A stretch of 52,015 bases of DNA, taken from positions 1 to 52,015 of the IMG/VR virus record IMGVR_UViG_3300028920_000088. The stretch is one strand, 5' to 3'. A program made the position numbers and the translations under genes. The notes beneath the pieces were generated by a model that saw nothing but the letters and a program-made list of their open reading frames with translations, was not told where the DNA came from and did no database searches. Source of the stretch: a virus. Each line of letters starts with the position of its first letter. The first letter of the stretch is position 1. Of this stretch, positions 16,069-31,495 are shown piece by piece.

Positions 16069-16678
16069 TCTAAATGTAGAGCAGTTAGCTAAGTTTTCAA
16101 AGCTGGCTAGGTCTGAGGCCCGTAAGTTAGTGAATAAATTAGGGAAAGCCCTAAAGTTTTATGAAGAGGATGACTTCGTAAACTGGGCTTACGTAAGTAA
16201 GTACTGGATGAATTATCTTGATGACGGGGATGAGCATATCATGAGGATAGCGTTGCGGTTCGCCATGATACGGGCGATGTCCGAGTCACGAGGTAGTCAA
16301 GGAAAGAAGTTTTATAGCTGGAGTTTTGATCAAGGCATACCCTATAGGGTACTGAAAAGGTATGGATTGATCGACAAGAACCTACCAGATTCAAACGCTA
16401 AGTTTAAGCCTATTGAATCTCCCGACGAATTAGAAAGTATGAAGGCTGAAGACCCTATAGATGTATTGATTAGACAGGAACTGTATGATACATTAAGAGT
16501 CTTGACGGGATGCCTGCCGGACAAACAAAAAGAAGCTATAGAGAAGAGGGTAAACTCCGGGGCTACGTTCAAGGAGATAGGGAAAGAAATGGGAGGAATT
16601 AGTAGTCAAGCTGTAAATAACTTGTACAATAGAGGAGTGACCAAAATTAGAAAGGAACTGAATCATGGAAATTACTGA
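16055..16678 (+). CDS. Sigma70-like factor, second of a tandem pair
   Basis: A 207-aa protein. The N-terminal 110 residues are helical (RIALRFAMIRAMSE), in the place of sigma region 2. Residues about 150-200 are a clear region 4 helix-turn-helix (LPDKQKEAIEKRV...FKEIGKEMGGISSQAVNNLYNRGVTKI). Start ATG follows AGGAG by 5-6 nt and overlaps the preceding gene. As a small sigma-like protein it likely reprograms host RNA polymerase for later phage genes, or is a duplicate specialised for another promoter class; which promoters it reads is unknown. Confidence 0.75.
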   Translation: MEHSDLNVEQLAKFSKLARSEARKLVNKLGKALKFYEEDDFVNWAYVSKYWMNYLDDGDEHIMRIALRFAMIRAMSESRGSQGKKFYSWSFDQGIPYRVLKRYGLIDKNLPDSNAKFKPIESPDELESMKAEDPIDVLIRQELYDTLRVLTGCLPDKQKEAIEKRVNSGATFKEIGKEMGGISSQAVNNLYNRGVTKIRKELNHGNY

Positions 16679-16705
16679 TGGCACATCCAAAAAAGGAGTC
16701 TCCTG

Positions 16706-17287
16706 ATGTCCAAGATTAACGATGCAATCTACAAACGGTACGAGGTACCTAAGAAGGTCACGGTCTTGGTTGATACGAGGGAGAAGTACCCGATGATATT
16801 CCCTGATGTAGTACATGTTGCTCACCCGTTCTTGAACTACAGTAGCCTTGCGATACAGGTAGAGACCAAGAAACAGAAGCTGGATGTGGGGGACTATATG
16901 TTAGGGGAGTACCCTGATGTCTGTATCATAGAGAGGAAGGCATCACAGCTAGAGTTGTATAAGAATCTGATGGAGAGTCGTGACTCAATCAGACAGGCTA
17001 AAGCCTTCCGTAAGTTAGCAGCTACTGCGGAGTATCCTGTACTTTTGGTGGAGGCTTCCCCGACTGAGCTACTGAGAAAGAGAACCAAGAAGCCGTGGAT
17101 TAAGAACCCGGAGATTATAGTTAGCAAGTTGTCACTGGCGGTAGCTAAGTACGGGTTCAACGTAGTGTTCATACCGTGGAAAGCAAGAAACTACCAGACA
17201 CGAAGAAAGGTGTGGACACTACTGGTACATATGATGGTAGCTTATGCAGTTTACCCTCATTTTGAGGTCGTGCCGAATCCCCTCTAA
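16706..17287 (+). CDS. ERCC4-domain nuclease
   Basis: A 193-aa protein with the ERCC4/XPF nuclease core: VDTRE at residues 22-26, GDY at 62-64 and the catalytic ERK at 76-78. The usual Asp after ERKxxx is absent (ERKASQLEL), a mild departure. Such phage proteins cut branched or flapped DNA during replication or recombination. It has an AAAGGAG ribosome site and follows the sigma pair by 27 bp in the same direction. Confidence 0.85.
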   Translation: MSKINDAIYKRYEVPKKVTVLVDTREKYPMIFPDVVHVAHPFLNYSSLAIQVETKKQKLDVGDYMLGEYPDVCIIERKASQLELYKNLMESRDSIRQAKAFRKLAATAEYPVLLVEASPTELLRKRTKKPWIKNPEIIVSKLSLAVAKYGFNVVFIPWKARNYQTRRKVWTLLVHMMVAYAVYPHFEVVPNPL

Positions 17288-17386
17288 AATTTTTAATGCC
17301 CATCGTGTAAGTTTCCTTGACAAGGAGTTTCCTAAGTTAAGTAACTATAAACATGCGGAAGTCAAGTACATTTTACCCTACATGGG

Positions 17387-17415
17387 TTGACTTATGAGGT
17401 ATTGTATGGTAATAT
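17387..17415 (+). promoter_or_regulatory. Extended -10 promoter upstream of the XRE-like gene
   Basis: TTGACT at 17387-17392, 17-bp spacer, TAATAT at 17410-17415, with TGG just before the -10 box (an extended -10). A TATAAT also occurs at 17415-17420 with a poorer 22-bp spacer. It sits in the intergenic gap after the ERCC4 nuclease; a TTGACA at 17317 lacks a partner at usable spacing. Confidence 0.65.
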
Positions 17416-17454
17416 ATAATTATGGGAAGGCAAAGAAGTTAGCCCATTTAATTT

Positions 17455-17466
17455 GGCCTCCGCAGG
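17455..17466 (+). repeat. Dispersed motif, intergenic copy in leader hairpin
   Basis: Exact copy forming the left outer arm of the hairpin before the XRE-like gene. Confidence 0.95.
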
Positions 17467-17515
17467 GATGGGGGTGTGTAGTGGACTCCACTACCGCCCC
17501 TGCCCGTTTTTCAAA
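17455..17515 (+). terminator. Hairpin with T run: attenuator or small-RNA terminator
   Basis: TAGTGGA and TCCACTA form a tight stem near 17477-17492. Outside it, GCAGGG (17462-17467) pairs with a downstream CCCTGC, separated by internal loops, and GTTTTT follows directly. The left arm contains an exact dispersed 12-bp motif (17455-17466). With the promoter at 17387-17415, transcription would give a short RNA of about 90 nt unless it reads through into the XRE-like gene. It is either an attenuated leader or a discrete small RNA. Confidence 0.6.
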
Positions 17516-17527
17516 TTGGAGGCCACT

Positions 17528-17821
17528 ATGATAGTCAACGATCCAAATAAGAACACATCTGAATCTTGCCTTGCGGAAGCAGAGAGTAGAGCCTACGAGA
17601 ATCTTAGGACCCAGGTAGCAGAAGACCTGATTAGACTAGCTGCTGAGCACGATATGTCCACAGAATACATGGCTGAGAAGCTAGACTTGAGTCCTATTGG
17701 CTATAAGTTCCTGATATGGGACAAGGAGATGAGCCTACGGGAACTGAATGAGGTTGCCAGTGTATTTAGTTATGAGCCGGTCATTCTATTCCGTAGGAGG
17801 TGGCCTGCCACCCACAATTAG
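17528..17821 (+). CDS. XRE-like helix-turn-helix regulator
   Basis: A 97-aa protein. Residues about 36-85 read as an XRE-type helix-turn-helix (LIRLAAEHDMSTEYMAEKLD followed by LSPIGYKFLIWDKEMSLRELNEVASVF). ATG 17528 is preceded by TTGGAGG, which rules out earlier starts inside the hairpin. Located behind a promoter and an attenuator-like hairpin, it is a good candidate for a phage transcription regulator, perhaps of the palindromic operators seen elsewhere. Target and mode are unknown. Confidence 0.7.
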   Translation: MIVNDPNKNTSESCLAEAESRAYENLRTQVAEDLIRLAAEHDMSTEYMAEKLDLSPIGYKFLIWDKEMSLRELNEVASVFSYEPVILFRRRWPATHN

Positions 17822-17843
17822 AAACAATTAGAAAGGAAAGAAA

Positions 17844-18116
17844 ATGATGGAATTTAGTGTGGTTAAATACTCGGAAATAGACCCCTTCATACCAGAAGTA
17901 ACAGTGGAGCGGGACGACAAACTTAGATGCTTCACGTTTGTTGGAGATAAGATCGGCTATTTTTATCATGTATCTTATAACAGGTGCGATACTCCATCAA
18001 AAATACTTGGGTGGTGCGATCATCTAAAAAGAAAAACATGGTTCGACACGTACCTCTTAGACAGCTTCATACAGCTTGCATTCGAGAGGATCGGAGTCAG
18101 AAAGGAGTACCCGTGA
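17844..18116 (+). CDS. Unknown 90-aa protein
   Basis: A small mixed-charge soluble protein rich in aromatic residues, without recognised motifs. It has a ribosome site GAAAGG, lies 22 bp after the regulator, and its stop overlaps the GTG start of the RecB-like nuclease by 4 bp, so the two are probably translated together. Confidence 0.65.
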   Translation: MMEFSVVKYSEIDPFIPEVTVERDDKLRCFTFVGDKIGYFYHVSYNRCDTPSKILGWCDHLKRKTWFDTYLLDSFIQLAFERIGVRKEYP

Positions 18117-19120
18117 ACGAATTCATTAAGGAAAGAAAGAGTTACGATGCATACCCCCTCAGTCAATCGAGCATAGCTTGTGCGTTGGGGTGTGAGAGGA
18201 ACTGGTTCTTCCGGTACCGATGGCACCTCAAGCCGAAAGATAGGGAGTTCAGGAAGGCGGCAGACCTCGGTACGATCTACCACCTGATGATGAAGAAGGG
18301 CCCGACCAAATTGGAGGAAGTCTTGAAATGGGTCAAGGATAGACAGGCTGTCCTCATGGAAGAGGTTGATGAGTTCGGGGGGTACAGCGACGAGGTTGTC
18401 AAGCATGTGAACGACCTTACCGACATGTATAATCGTGCGAAATGTATGGCAGAACTGTTCTGGGAAAAGTTCCCCCGTGGGGAGGATAGAGAGACCCTGT
18501 TCCGAGAGCAGTACTTGGAGATGGACGATCTGTGTGGGACTATCGATGAAGTAGAACACAAAATCAGCACAAACACCATCAGCATCAGGGATACTAAGAC
18601 TACGACGCGAGAGCTGAAGGCTGTCGTTACAGGATATCGGTTCGGGATTCAAGCTAGATTGTACCGCCTGCTGGTCGATGACTGGGCCGCAAAGAATGGG
18701 CATAAGAGCCCCTCCGGATTCATACTGGATGTGGTACGGATGCCCAATATTAAACTGTGTGGCACAGACGTAAAGAAAGCCAACAAACTTCACATCACTC
18801 CTGCGGAGGCCTATAAGATGAGGGTCCTTGAATGGTACGAGGACAACGGGATAGCAGCTATGAACTGTGTAGCTATGCCGTTTGAGGAGCCTATCATGAC
18901 CGACGAGTTGGATAGGGTGCTGGAAACCGTGCGAGACATGGCTAATCGTGAGCCTGATCCAAGAAACTATAGTAGGGACATGAGCCGACGTTGTTGCTAT
19001 AAATTTAATAAGCAGTGTCCCTTTCATAGTCTTTGTGATATGGATATTAGCTTATGGCCAGCCGAGCTGCATCGTGAATACACAACATATGAAAAGGTGG
19101 AGAAAGGAGTGCTTTCATGA
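18113..19120 (+). CDS. RecB/AddB-like PD-(D/E)XK nuclease with Fe-S cysteines
   Basis: A 335-aa protein. The start is GTG 18113, overlapping the preceding TGA, with AAAGGAG 6 nt upstream. The nuclease core is seen as GTIDEVE (D145), IRDTKT (D160, K162) and QARLY (Q180), which is the RecB-family motif order. One cysteine pair near residue 23-27 and a cluster at the C-terminus (CCYKFNKQCPFHSLC) match the 4Fe-4S arrangement of AddB and Cas4 nucleases. It probably resects DNA ends for recombination with the nearby annealing-type ATPase and SSB-like protein. Confidence 0.85.
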   Translation: MNEFIKERKSYDAYPLSQSSIACALGCERNWFFRYRWHLKPKDREFRKAADLGTIYHLMMKKGPTKLEEVLKWVKDRQAVLMEEVDEFGGYSDEVVKHVNDLTDMYNRAKCMAELFWEKFPRGEDRETLFREQYLEMDDLCGTIDEVEHKISTNTISIRDTKTTTRELKAVVTGYRFGIQARLYRLLVDDWAAKNGHKSPSGFILDVVRMPNIKLCGTDVKKANKLHITPAEAYKMRVLEWYEDNGIAAMNCVAMPFEEPIMTDELDRVLETVRDMANREPDPRNYSRDMSRRCCYKFNKQCPFHSLCDMDISLWPAELHREYTTYEKVEKGVLS

Positions 19121-27759: not shown

Positions 27760-27984
27760 ATGAGAGTTTCTTTTTCAAACAATGAGAGTGGAGCTGCAAC
27801 CAAGAGGCTGGAGGTCCCCAATGGGACTACTGTCTCTCAATTAGTCAGACGGAATATGCCCCACTTCAACGGTGGTCGACATCAGGTACGGGTGAATAGG
27901 GAGATGGCAGCTCCTGAAGACATCCTGGAAGACGGCGATGCAGTAACTGTCCTTCCCAACAAGGTAGGAGGAGGTAACTGCTAA
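27760..27984 (+). CDS. Ubiquitin-like beta-grasp protein (ThiS/MoaD-like)
   Basis: A 74-aa protein with the beta-grasp pattern: beta1 RVSFSN, beta2 KRLEVPNG, helix TVSQLVRRNM, beta3 HQVRVNRE, then ILEDGDAVTVLPNKVGGG, very like the ThiS/MoaD signature (a Gly-Asp turn, a hydrophobic strand, Pro, and terminal glycines). The chain ends G70-G71-G72-N73-C74, so two residues would have to be removed to expose a Gly terminus for activation; a JAMM peptidase is encoded two genes downstream. ATG 27760 follows AAAGGA. The first gene of the Ubl-E2-JAMM-E1 set. Confidence 0.82.
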   Translation: MRVSFSNNESGAATKRLEVPNGTTVSQLVRRNMPHFNGGRHQVRVNREMAAPEDILEDGDAVTVLPNKVGGGNC

Positions 27985-27999
27985 GTAACTGCATAAAAC

Positions 28000-28060
28000 C
28001 TATAGGGCCTCCGCAGGGATAGACTTGCCGGGTAGTTCCCGGTCCTGCGGAGGCCTATAG
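28000..28060. repeat. Inverted pair of the 12-bp motif, large hairpin
   Basis: GGCCTCCGCAGG (28006-28017) faces its exact complement (28044-28055), extended outside by CTATAG on both sides with one extra G on the left. Between them CCGGG (28028-28032) pairs with CCCGG (28038-28042). The whole forms a long nested hairpin or cruciform in the gap between the Ubl and E2-like genes. No T run follows, so it is more likely an RNA-processing, stability or DNA-binding element than a terminator. Confidence 0.85.
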
Positions 28061-28080
28061 AATGTGAAAGGGGTCTAATT

Positions 28081-29442
28081 ATGATAAGAGAGAACAAGAA
28101 ACAAAAAGGACCTACCAAGTTTAGCAGGCTCTCCAAGGTAAAGCAAAAAGAGCTTCTAGAAAAGTGGAAGGTATTAGCAAAGAAGGTCATAAATCGCTCT
28201 ACTGACGGGTATGAGAGGGTTATCAAAAGAGTTAGTAATCAGGATAGTATTCCGGCGGACGCTGGAATTCCACGTAAAGATGCTGCTATTCTCGGCACTT
28301 ATTCAGTAAGGGAACTGACCGAAATGGTTGTCGGGGAACGAGAATTCCCGGAGAAGTTAGAGAAGCAAATAAATAGGTACCGGCTGGGCAATTACCTGCA
28401 GCGAATCTTTTTACGGCGTAGCGACGACATGGCCTGGGTTGCTGGTATTGAGGATAAAGTTCTTGCCGCTACTAGGAATAAGTATGAACTGATTACTTCT
28501 GCTGTGGAAGACCTCCGTACCCTATACAATATATATGGCAAAGATTTGATTGTAGAGGGAGAAGGCCCTACTGGGGTTTATTTTCGTTTCGGCTTCCGTA
28601 CCAGGGCCATTTCATTTGGGAATAGAAGGTTCGGGAGATTCACTGTCGGATATAGAGACTTGAAGGAAGATAATTTTGCCTTTCCTAGGGCTATTGCAGA
28701 TACCCCAAACTATGCAGCTCCTACGAGACACATAGAGACACGATCTCTTACTCATCCCCATGTTAAAAACGGCTACTTATGTACAGGAGATGTCAAGAAC
28801 TTATTGGTCAGTCACTTGACGTTAGGCCAGTTTCTTGATGCCGCTGAGCTACTGAGACTACTGATCACGACGTATGATCCAGACGGGGCCTTTAAGCTAC
28901 TGGATGATTGGAAAAATTCAATGGGATTGAAGGTAGTTACTTGCCATACATGTAATGAGAGGGTAGCTCATCACCGCTGTTATACGTGTATTGGATGTAT
29001 TGAAAAGGGACTCACCAAGTACATATGTAAGGAATGTTGGGCGGACCCCAAAAAGAGTTTTACATGTCCTACTTGTGGAGGCGTATCATGTAGGACGGAT
29101 TTGAGGGAAGACGGGACAGCATCGTGTTTGCATAAGTGCTATATTTGTGGAAAAGAGCGTTGTTCCCATTGTAGTGTATATATGTTTCCATCAGGACGGA
29201 ACGATGGTGGCCGAATCTATATCTGTAGACCTTGTTTAACAAGTCGTAACGGTATCGGCATCCTTCTAGATCTTATCCGTCTTGGGACTCCTTTCGCTAT
29301 CCCAGCCATGCCGCAAAATGACTGCACAAGAAATACGGCGTGGTTGTCGAAGTTATTGGATAAAACAGAGAAACTTATTAGGCCTATAAATCGGGAATAT
29401 GAAGAATTGAAGGAAATAGTCAATAAATTGAAATTGAAATAG
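28081..29442 (+). CDS. E2-like conjugating enzyme fused to a multi-zinc domain
   Basis: A 453-aa protein. Residues about 140-280 resemble a ubiquitin-conjugating (E2) fold: beta strands, then THPHVKNGYLCTGD with H225-P226 and a candidate catalytic Cys234, followed by helices LGQFLDAAELLRLLITTYDPDGAF like the segment after the E2 cysteine. From C288 to about residue 385 there are many CxxC pairs (TCHTC, CYTCIGC, CKEC, CPTC, CYIC, CSHC, CRPC), a RING- or B-box-like zinc array that could act as an E3. The N-terminal 130 residues are helical and basic. Ribosome site AAAGGGG. The E2 call rests on motif and gene order. Confidence 0.68.
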   Translation: MIRENKKQKGPTKFSRLSKVKQKELLEKWKVLAKKVINRSTDGYERVIKRVSNQDSIPADAGIPRKDAAILGTYSVRELTEMVVGEREFPEKLEKQINRYRLGNYLQRIFLRRSDDMAWVAGIEDKVLAATRNKYELITSAVEDLRTLYNIYGKDLIVEGEGPTGVYFRFGFRTRAISFGNRRFGRFTVGYRDLKEDNFAFPRAIADTPNYAAPTRHIETRSLTHPHVKNGYLCTGDVKNLLVSHLTLGQFLDAAELLRLLITTYDPDGAFKLLDDWKNSMGLKVVTCHTCNERVAHHRCYTCIGCIEKGLTKYICKECWADPKKSFTCPTCGGVSCRTDLREDGTASCLHKCYICGKERCSHCSVYMFPSGRNDGGRIYICRPCLTSRNGIGILLDLIRLGTPFAIPAMPQNDCTRNTAWLSKLLDKTEKLIRPINREYEELKEIVNKLKLK

Positions 29443-29463
29443 AAAGAAAGGTTGAATAAGATT

Positions 29464-30318
29464 ATGGTGAAGAAAACAAAAACTGAAGGGAACAACAAAA
29501 AACAGGTTGCAGATTGGAAAGATGTGAAGGGGGAAGAGGGAGACGTATTGCCAGAACTGCCTGATGAGGAGACCCCTAGTTTGGTATTGACCGGCTGGGT
29601 ATACCAGAAGCTAAGTTACTGGAGAAGACTTGCAGACGGTAACGAGATAAGTTGTTTTGGTATTTCTAGATCAGTTGATGATCCTCTGAGGGTCGTAGAG
29701 CTATATATGCCTAGACAAGAAGTCACGAGAGGTAGTACCGACATGACGGCAGAGGGCTTGGCTCAGATGTGGGATGACATGACGGGGGCAGGATTGGAGC
29801 CGGAACAGTTCAATCGAATATGGATACATACACATCCAGGAGATACTAATCCATCCAGGATTGACTTCGATACGTGCAAAGAGGTGTTTGGTCGATGCGA
29901 CTGGTTCATCATGATGATTATGGGCAAGGAAGATTTTGGCTGCTGGTTATACAAGATGGGTAGGATTCCTACCCGTACTATGCTCGAAGTCAAGGTGGAT
30001 TATTCCTCCCCAGGTCTCCCTCCAGACACCTTGAAGAAATGGGAAAATACAATAAGCAATATGGTGACTGTCGAGAAGCCTATCATGGTCATACGAGATT
30101 TCATGGGCAAAGGCATGGGAGATGACCCAAGGGTACTAGGAATCGTTGGGAAGATCAGAACCATAAGGGGCAAAATAGATGAACTAACAACCCGATGTTA
30201 TGAGTGTCGAAGGAAAAGAGATGTAAAAGAAGGAGACGCTATGACTGAATGTGCGATGTGCAATACCAGAAGAAGCCTAGTGGGTCTATACATGGAGCTT
30301 GACACCCTAAAAGGGTAA
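29464..30318 (+). CDS. JAMM/MPN+ isopeptidase
   Basis: A 284-aa protein with a textbook JAMM motif: H122-x-H124-P then P130-S131-x2-D134 (HTHPGDTNPSRID), with an upstream Glu candidate in RVVELYMPRQEV. This is the metalloprotease core of Rpn11/AMSH-type deubiquitinases and bacterial Ubl-processing enzymes. A C-terminal zinc ribbon follows (CYEC...CAMC). Expected jobs are trimming the Ubl precursor and removing Ubl from targets. ATG 29464 is preferred over a TTG 12 bp upstream. It lies between the E2-like and E1-like genes. Confidence 0.88.
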   Translation: MVKKTKTEGNNKKQVADWKDVKGEEGDVLPELPDEETPSLVLTGWVYQKLSYWRRLADGNEISCFGISRSVDDPLRVVELYMPRQEVTRGSTDMTAEGLAQMWDDMTGAGLEPEQFNRIWIHTHPGDTNPSRIDFDTCKEVFGRCDWFIMMIMGKEDFGCWLYKMGRIPTRTMLEVKVDYSSPGLPPDTLKKWENTISNMVTVEKPIMVIRDFMGKGMGDDPRVLGIVGKIRTIRGKIDELTTRCYECRRKRDVKEGDAMTECAMCNTRRSLVGLYMELDTLKG

Positions 30319-30373
30319 TAACAAATCTTTATTCAAGCACTAACTGCCAACAACCAACAATAGGAGATTTAAC

Positions 30374-31495
30374 ATGGGTAAAACAACAAAAAAAGAAAAG
30401 CAAGAGTTCTCCCAGTCAGACGACATACTAGAGGTTGTAGAGTACCAGAAGGAAGAAATGGAGAAAGAAGAGGAGAGACTCAAAGCACAAGAGCAGGGAG
30501 AGGAACAAGAAGAGAAACAAGAAGAGGAACAAGAAGAGAAACAGGTAGTTCTCTTTGCGGATGAAATGGCGGATGACGAAGAGTCTATTCTTTGTAGGGG
30601 AGCATTATCGAATACCATATACATGAGAACCAGTTCTCTGCTACCTATGGGGGAGGTCAATAAGGATTCCGCCATAGTGGTTGGAGTCGGAGGTATAGGT
30701 CGACAAGTAGCATTGCAATTGACCTCTCTTGGCGTTGAGAATATTGCAATATGGGATGACGATATTGTGTCAGCTACAAATGTAGCCACACAAGGATATC
30801 CTATAGGCGATATAGGACAACATAAGGTTGACAGCCTAGACTTCTCCATGAACGAGATTATTGATGGCAACTTTAATCCCTACCCTTACAAGTTCCCGCC
30901 ATCCGACAAGTTCGAGGATTATTGGTCCAACGATCCCCAGATAGGAGTTGTATTCTTGTGTGTTGATCGTATTGACATACGAGAGTCCATATGGAAAGAC
31001 ATGCAGTTTGGTAGTGGAGTTAATCCGGCCAAATATCCCCTGGTTATTGATGGGAGAATGGCTGCTGAGACAGGACGAGTCATAACGGTAAATACAAGGT
31101 CAAAAGAGGACCTGAAATACTACGAGGCCACCTTGTTCCCACAAGAAGAGCAGACACCAATGCCTTGTACTGCTAAGGCCACCATTTATTGCGGCAACTT
31201 CATTGCAGCCATTATGGTAGCCCAATATACTAGGTACTTAAGGGCCTCCGCAGAGGAGAAAGCGAAAGGTAACGATGAGTATAGGGACCTTATGTTCTCC
31301 TTGAGGTCTTTTGAGATATTTCCATATGATGAGATGGCAAACACTGAGGATAAGGCGAAAGAGGCCCATACTGTTCCTTTACATACTCGTACCAACCCGA
31401 CAGGATTGGTGAAGATTGCATCTAGTACAGGTACAAAGAAGAAGAAAGGAGGTGGTAAGAAGAATAAGGCTACTAAAACTACGAAGAAGCAGTAA
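30374..31495 (+). CDS. E1-like (ThiF/MoeB family) Ubl-activating enzyme
   Basis: A 373-aa protein. Residues 1-70 are an acidic Glu/Gln-rich tail. A Rossmann ATP-binding core follows with G104-x-G106-G107-I-G109, the acidic strand end IWDDDIVSATN (D128-D130, N136), TQGY...IGQHK as in E1 enzymes, and a candidate catalytic cysteine C265 (TPMPC) before a helical segment. The E1 reaction adenylates the Ubl C-terminus and passes it to a cysteine. The C-terminus is Lys/Gly-rich. ATG follows TAGGAG. Completes the Ubl-E2-JAMM-E1 set in Bil-like order. Confidence 0.87.
   Translation: MGKTTKKEKQEFSQSDDILEVVEYQKEEMEKEEERLKAQEQGEEQEEKQEEEQEEKQVVLFADEMADDEESILCRGALSNTIYMRTSSLLPMGEVNKDSAIVVGVGGIGRQVALQLTSLGVENIAIWDDDIVSATNVATQGYPIGDIGQHKVDSLDFSMNEIIDGNFNPYPYKFPPSDKFEDYWSNDPQIGVVFLCVDRIDIRESIWKDMQFGSGVNPAKYPLVIDGRMAAETGRVITVNTRSKEDLKYYEATLFPQEEQTPMPCTAKATIYCGNFIAAIMVAQYTRYLRASAEEKAKGNDEYRDLMFSLRSFEIFPYDEMANTEDKAKEAHTVPLHTRTNPTGLVKIASSTGTKKKKGGGKKNKATKTTKKQ

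Follow-up and report, generated by a model that had tools for sequence, protein, structure and literature searches.

A phage-borne four-gene cassette resembling ubiquitin-like conjugation systems recurs in uncultured virus records

The stretch of DNA analysed here (the window) is a virus record of 52,015 bases with 48% G+C. It is a phage, with a terminase large subunit gene (39.6-41.5 kb), a DNA polymerase gene and weak portal and tail-sheath matches. We found four genes on the same strand at positions 27760-31495, encoding a ThiS-type ubiquitin-like protein (Ubl), an E2-like protein, a JAMM protease and a single-domain ThiF/E1 enzyme (Table 1). A first-pass annotation of this DNA had claimed that a phage here carries the full set of Ubl, E2, JAMM and E1, with Cys residues 234 (E2) and 265 (E1) as candidate catalytic residues, and all four genes are indeed present. 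The cassette is flanked on one side by a replication/nucleotide module (exonuclease, Sak4-like annealing protein, MazG, dNMP phosphatase and metallophosphatase) and on the other by the packaging genes. Elsewhere in the window, a protein encoded at 16055-16678 matches sigma-70 region 4 (Pfam, 7e-7) and is possibly a phage sigma-like factor. An Rfam search of the window detected no RNA family.

Table 1. Features of the cassette in the window, and AAA+ ATPase genes in related records
Feature	Location	Strand	Remarks
Ubl, 74 aa, ThiS-type beta-grasp	27760..27984	+	Pfam ThiS E=3.6e-6, above cut-off
Strong RNA hairpin in the Ubl-E2 gap	28000..28060	+	-43 kcal/mol, z -4.4
E2-like protein, 453 aa	28081..29442	+	
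E2-like domain, about residues 100-280	28378..28920	+	H225-P226-H227 and candidate catalytic C234
Cys-rich region, residues 288-385	28942..29235	+	repeated CxxC pairs kept in relatives
JAMM metalloprotease-like protein	29464..30318 (ATG)	+	upstream TTG start at 29452 possible
ThiF/E1-like adenylating enzyme, 373 aa	30374..31495	+	Pfam ThiF E=1.3e-19
AAA+ ATPase	L023 12314-13873; L012 8259-9752		
AAA+ ATPase, further records	G002, G004, G005, G006, G012, G017, G019, G020, G022, G023, G024		

The Ubl of the window ends in KVGGGNC. It had been described as having terminal glycines; the glycines are present, but Asn-Cys follows them, and the feature shared by the family is the Gly of a KVxG motif with a short variable tail. 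G71 of the window protein aligns with this Gly (alignment of six relatives), which in most members lies near the C-terminus and is followed by a few variable residues. Ubl homologues occupy the same position in other loci. The homologue in locus L044 carries an 80-residue extension beyond the KVxG Gly, and the one in L053 is without the Gly. Two loci (L033, 1315-1980; L034, 1429-2094) encode three tandem Ubls per protein, two of which end in KV[EQ]GA, like a polyubiquitin-type precursor. A second Ubl-like gene in the element of L023 (2365-2613) ends in KLVQAC, with the glycine absent. Ubl precursors with tails, an 80-residue extension or tandem Ubls would need a processing protease, and the JAMM protein can supply it.

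The hairpin that follows the Ubl gene in the window has no T-run and is a possible attenuator or processing site; for comparison, 12 of 100 further gaps taken from the cassette loci have z values below -3. By eye, G+C-rich hairpins are found in the Ubl-E2 gap of eight loci (L016, L019, L021, L023, L035, L038, L049 and L053), mostly followed by a T-rich stretch as in an intrinsic terminator. L043, like the window, has a hairpin without a T-rich stretch, and four loci (L015, L018, L031 and L045) have no clear hairpin in this gap. A hairpin after the Ubl gene fits an excess of Ubl over the enzymes, suggesting a partial terminator that would yield more Ubl, which is what conjugation would require.

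The 453-aa protein has no match in the family libraries. It contains THPHVKNGYLCTGD, which includes C234 (codon 28780-28782). The H, the P, the Cys and the Gly two residues after the Cys are invariant in an alignment of 27 E2-like sequences, most of which were retrieved through E1, so that the motif was not selected for. The upstream HP motif of E2s is thus present before the Cys, with H replacing N. A model of the E2-like domain from this alignment (pLDDT 81.6, pTM 0.74) consists of a long helix, a beta sheet, a loop carrying HPH and the Cys, and two helices; the full-length model, from 6 sequences, reached a pLDDT of 49.6. When the domain model was compared with the PDB by Foldseek, 13 of the 17 matches were E2s (best E 0.8, TM about 0.4, none significant alone), and five of the eight marginal PDB matches of the 27-sequence profile were ubiquitin-conjugating enzymes, likewise with none significant alone. 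A profile comparison with archaeal E2s places HPH..C on the E2 motif, with E = 0.0026 (0.82 for the control). E2s account for about 317 of the 177,635 PDB sequences, and a simple binomial probability for their enrichment among the matches is extremely small; since related E2 matches are not independent, the predicted E2 fold of the 453-aa protein is likely rather than proven. Model, fold search, profile search and archaeal comparison all point to the E2 assignment made at first, and the invariance of the Cys agrees with C234 as the catalytic candidate. In most relatives, the last third of the protein is rich in Cys and probably binds zinc through its CxxC pairs. A RING identity for this domain is not supported, as Pfam gives neither RING nor any other family.

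The JAMM protein carries HTHPGDTNPSRID and has weak matches to PADLOC JAB (0.002) and NCBIfam Cap3 (0.01). Its residues E60, H121, H123, S130 and D133 (P0003 numbering) are invariant in ten sequences. The residues of the metal site expected of the proposed JAMM isopeptidase are all present, though HxH and Ser are separated by a loop one residue short, with 6 residues in the window and 7 in nearly all relatives (motif E...HxHx7SxxD).

The E1 scores 70.8 bits with Pfam ThiF against a cut-off of 28.1. It consists of one adenylation domain with GVGGIG at residues 104-109, in agreement with the GxGGIG core reported before, and its candidate catalytic C265 is encoded at 31166-31168. Across nine aligned relatives, R85, GxG, D128, D130, N136, K151, D198 and C265 are invariant, which favours C265 as the catalytic candidate; it also aligns with a Cys of the ThiF proteins of crAss-like phages. 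In a profile search of the PDB, UBA5 chains came best, followed by MccB, PaaA, MoeB and ThiF, all of them minimal adenylating enzymes. At its N-terminus the window E1 has an acidic extension of 83 aa and at its C-terminus a Lys-rich one, both absent in its relatives, whose total length is only 212-286 aa. These extensions, together with the HxHx6S loop of the JAMM protein in place of x7, might indicate that the window copy is a decaying family member with partly lost activity. We consider this highly improbable, given that the four frames are open and all catalytic residues are retained.

We investigated the distribution of the cassette in viral contigs. Searches for single proteins with exact peptide patterns of E1, E2 and JAMM gave no matches there, because identities are too low for exact patterns. 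A DNA pattern for HPHV..G.LC.G matched seven stretches, all seven in frame in E2-like proteins whose genes adjoin JAMM and E1 genes. A scan with the E1 alignment detected 26 loci, 20 of them in new records. In total, the cassette was found in 27 other uncultured virus records and three MAG contigs, which together with the window make 31 loci; independent cases are slightly fewer, owing to the near-identical record pairs L016/L017 and L045/L047. Profile searches show the four genes in the order Ubl-E2-JAMM-E1 on one strand in 24 of the 31 loci. The remaining seven are cut by contig ends or include a member that scores weakly or, in the case of the E2 recognised by eye in L052 (HPY...ICLG), has diverged. 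No matches were obtained in tblastn searches of E2 and JAMM against annotated phages or of E2 against plasmids.

The proteins of these relatives are 14-43% identical to those of the window. Over 20 loci, the distances measured for each of the four proteins correlate with those for the others (r = 0.84-0.92; Mantel p = 0.0005, the smallest value possible with 2,000 permutations). Because the four proteins co-diverge despite such low identities, the four genes have been inherited together as one old unit. The recurrence of the same families in the same order and on the same strand is far more than chance. Two phage genes upstream of the cassette are common to L018 and the window, and in both the cassette adjoins replication and nucleotide genes. 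An AAA+ ATPase gene exists in twelve virus records and in the L023 contig, 2-8 kb from the cassette where located; the window has none. The terminase gene in the record of L048 (G025, 16446-18134) reads through two in-frame TGA codons, and this may be a recoded phage.

The three matches in genome bins are assigned to Gemmataceae, Heimdallarchaeota and Shapirobacteria, and none of them is evidence of a cellular cassette. The Gemmataceae contig seems to have neighbours in common with the viral locus L012, and the Shapirobacteria match is a 3.3-kb fragment. An archaeal host, as implied by the match to a 'Heimdallarchaeota chromosome', was rejected: the contigs of that record are joined by 100-N gaps, and the contig with the cassette is viral in gene content. 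This locus (L023) corresponds to CP070695 151234-172989, a contig that looks viral, as probably does the one at 50-94 kb. The public record CP070695 thus seems to include virus sequence.

In crAss-like and Flavobacterium phages (L002, L003, L004 and L005), an E2 candidate, a JAMM and an E1 gene are found in the same order, with the E1 annotated as 'thiamine biosynthesis protein'. Their E1 and JAMM proteins are homologous to those of the window family (profile E 7e-35 and 6e-6, respectively), whereas the E2 candidate is weakly related (0.021), with HSH where the window has HPH and no Cys-rich tail seen, and the Ubl profile comparison gave only 0.24. BLASTP between the E2 candidate of crAss-like phages and the window protein was set aside as meaningless. 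These cassettes look like a distant cousin of the window cassette.

We compared the cassette with known systems. The first-pass annotation had linked it to the bacterial Bil operons. The four genes and their order, Ubl-E2-JAMM-E1, are indeed equal, whereas the link does not extend to kinship. While BilA consists of two consecutive Ubl domains (PMC11354881), the window Ubl is a single 74-aa domain, and its relatives are mostly single too, apart from the two triple-Ubl proteins. BilD comprises an inactive and an active adenylation domain and a Cys domain of about 80 aa (PMC11354881); the window E1, like its relatives, has a single ThiF domain and neither the inactive domain nor the Cys domain. 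The CEHH motif of BilB (Cys, Glu at +6, His at +8 and His at +13; PMC11354881) is absent from the window E2, which has N240, L242 and T247 at those positions after C234; it has instead HPH upstream of the Cys and a Cys-rich tail, and is encoded by phages. Processing of the Ubl by the JAMM protease is described for Bil, and would be shared by the window cassette. Judged by its sequences, the cassette is Bil-like in outline, with three Bil-defining features missing, and is not a member of the Bil family.

These differences bear on what the cassette might be for. Bil attaches Ubls to a phage tail fibre (PMC12948488; PMC11354881), and a cassette with the same order and component types, spread over diverse phages, might use the same conjugation chemistry to tag virion proteins of rival phages in defence against superinfection. 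We regard this as unlikely: the three features above set the cassette apart from Bil, its neighbours in L018, as in the window, are genes for replication and nucleotide functions, and there is no sign of lysogeny among the genes examined.

Other prokaryotic systems share parts of the cassette. Bacterial operons with Ubl, E1, E2 and JAB genes were described by Iyer et al. (2006), together with a pair of Ubl and JAB genes in phages that has neither E1 nor E2 (PMC1779556). The window has the same four component types as these operons and the PRTRC system, and PRTRC_ThiF matches its E1 at 1.3e-9; however, this match has 37.7 bits against a cut-off of 144.75, and the other three proteins of the window have no PRTRC match. 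The row-6d E2 of Iyer et al. is without the classical upstream His (PMC1779556), whereas the window E2 has HPH before the Cys. The tail-assembly pair of the lambda gpI/gpK type also combines a phage Ubl with a JAB protease (PMC1779556), but it is without E1 or E2, and the window cassette does not lie in a tail module. The single-domain E1 is a likeness to the minimal E1 systems of UBA5/UFM1 and MoeB types, with the similarity confined to the adenylation core. The UFM1 system is eukaryotic. Type II CBASS has a fused E2-E1 protein, Cap2, and a CD-NTase; the window, by contrast, encodes its E1 and E2 separately, and matches to the PADLOC E1-E2 models are confined to their E1 portion. We found no earlier report of such a phage cassette in the open-access literature searched, including jumbo-phage reviews, and we file it as a phage-borne variant of prokaryotic Ubl conjugation.

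The relatedness of these E1, E2 and JAMM enzymes to those employed by host systems also allows a counter-defence function, in which the phage machinery would compete with or reverse host Bil or type II CBASS, with JAMM as the main active part. JAMM-like deconjugation has been proposed as a viral strategy for Borgs (PMC12660748). However, a lone protease or a decoy would be enough for such a task, and the strict retention and co-divergence of four parts favour conjugation, making counter-defence quite unlikely.

A sulfur-carrier pathway of the ThiS/ThiF, MoaD/MoeB or TtuB/TtuC kind would explain another set of similarities. In such a pathway, the E1 would convert the Ubl into a thiocarboxylate, the sulfur donor for a nucleotide, a tRNA or a metabolite, JAMM would do no more than trim the Ubl, and the 453-aa protein would not act as an E2. 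ThiS/MoaD are the nearest matches of the Ubl, as ThiF/MoeB-type enzymes are of the E1, and bacterial ThiS-JAB-E1 sulfur operons exist (PMC1779556). However, genes for rhodanese (PF00581), cysteine desulfurase (PF00266) and TtuA-type ATP_bind_3 proteins (PF01171) are found in none of the 28 virus records, with positive results in control genomes, and the E1s examined have no CxxC pair, in line with the doubt about a plain sulfur pathway expressed at first. The co-diverging E2-like partner, whose Cys is invariant, is found in every locus whose contig extends far enough. Host enzymes could still provide the sulfur, yet a sulfur carrier is very unlikely.

The four genes, the conservation of their active sites, their fixed order and co-divergence, and the E2-like predicted fold argue for conjugation instead. 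We think that the cassette is probably a phage-encoded, self-contained system for Ubl conjugation and deconjugation, and infer the following chemistry and order of transfer. Trimming by the JAMM protease would leave the conserved KVxG glycine at the end of the Ubl. The E1, which has a single domain and is probably homodimeric as UBA5 and MoeB are, would adenylate this glycine with ATP, hold the Ubl on Cys265 and hand it on to the E2 at Cys234. Perhaps aided by its Cys-rich domain, the E2 would then join the Ubl to amino groups of target proteins, which may be host or phage proteins during infection, and JAMM could reverse the bond between Ubl and target. Since the cassette lies between replication/nucleotide and packaging genes, its likeliest purpose may be, tentatively, the modification of phage proteins or of host proteins, defence factors among them, in the course of takeover.

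With about even confidence, we extend this proposal to diverse tailed phages, which would run a complete reversible Ubl modification; its parts would be a Ubl matured by processing, a minimal E1, an E2 whose built-in zinc domain may be a ligase, and an isopeptidase; in a large-genome branch, the nearby AAA+ ATPase could unfold the tagged proteins. The 'thiamine biosynthesis ThiF' proteins of crAss-like phages are suggested to belong to a similar cassette. Bacterial Ubl conjugation is known mainly as an anti-phage weapon. A complete, intact and widespread phage cassette would reverse that picture and predicts protein tagging by phages, and its members are ready candidates for reconstitution. 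If this is true, phages use ubiquitin-like signalling as a tool of infection, beyond suffering it as a host defence.
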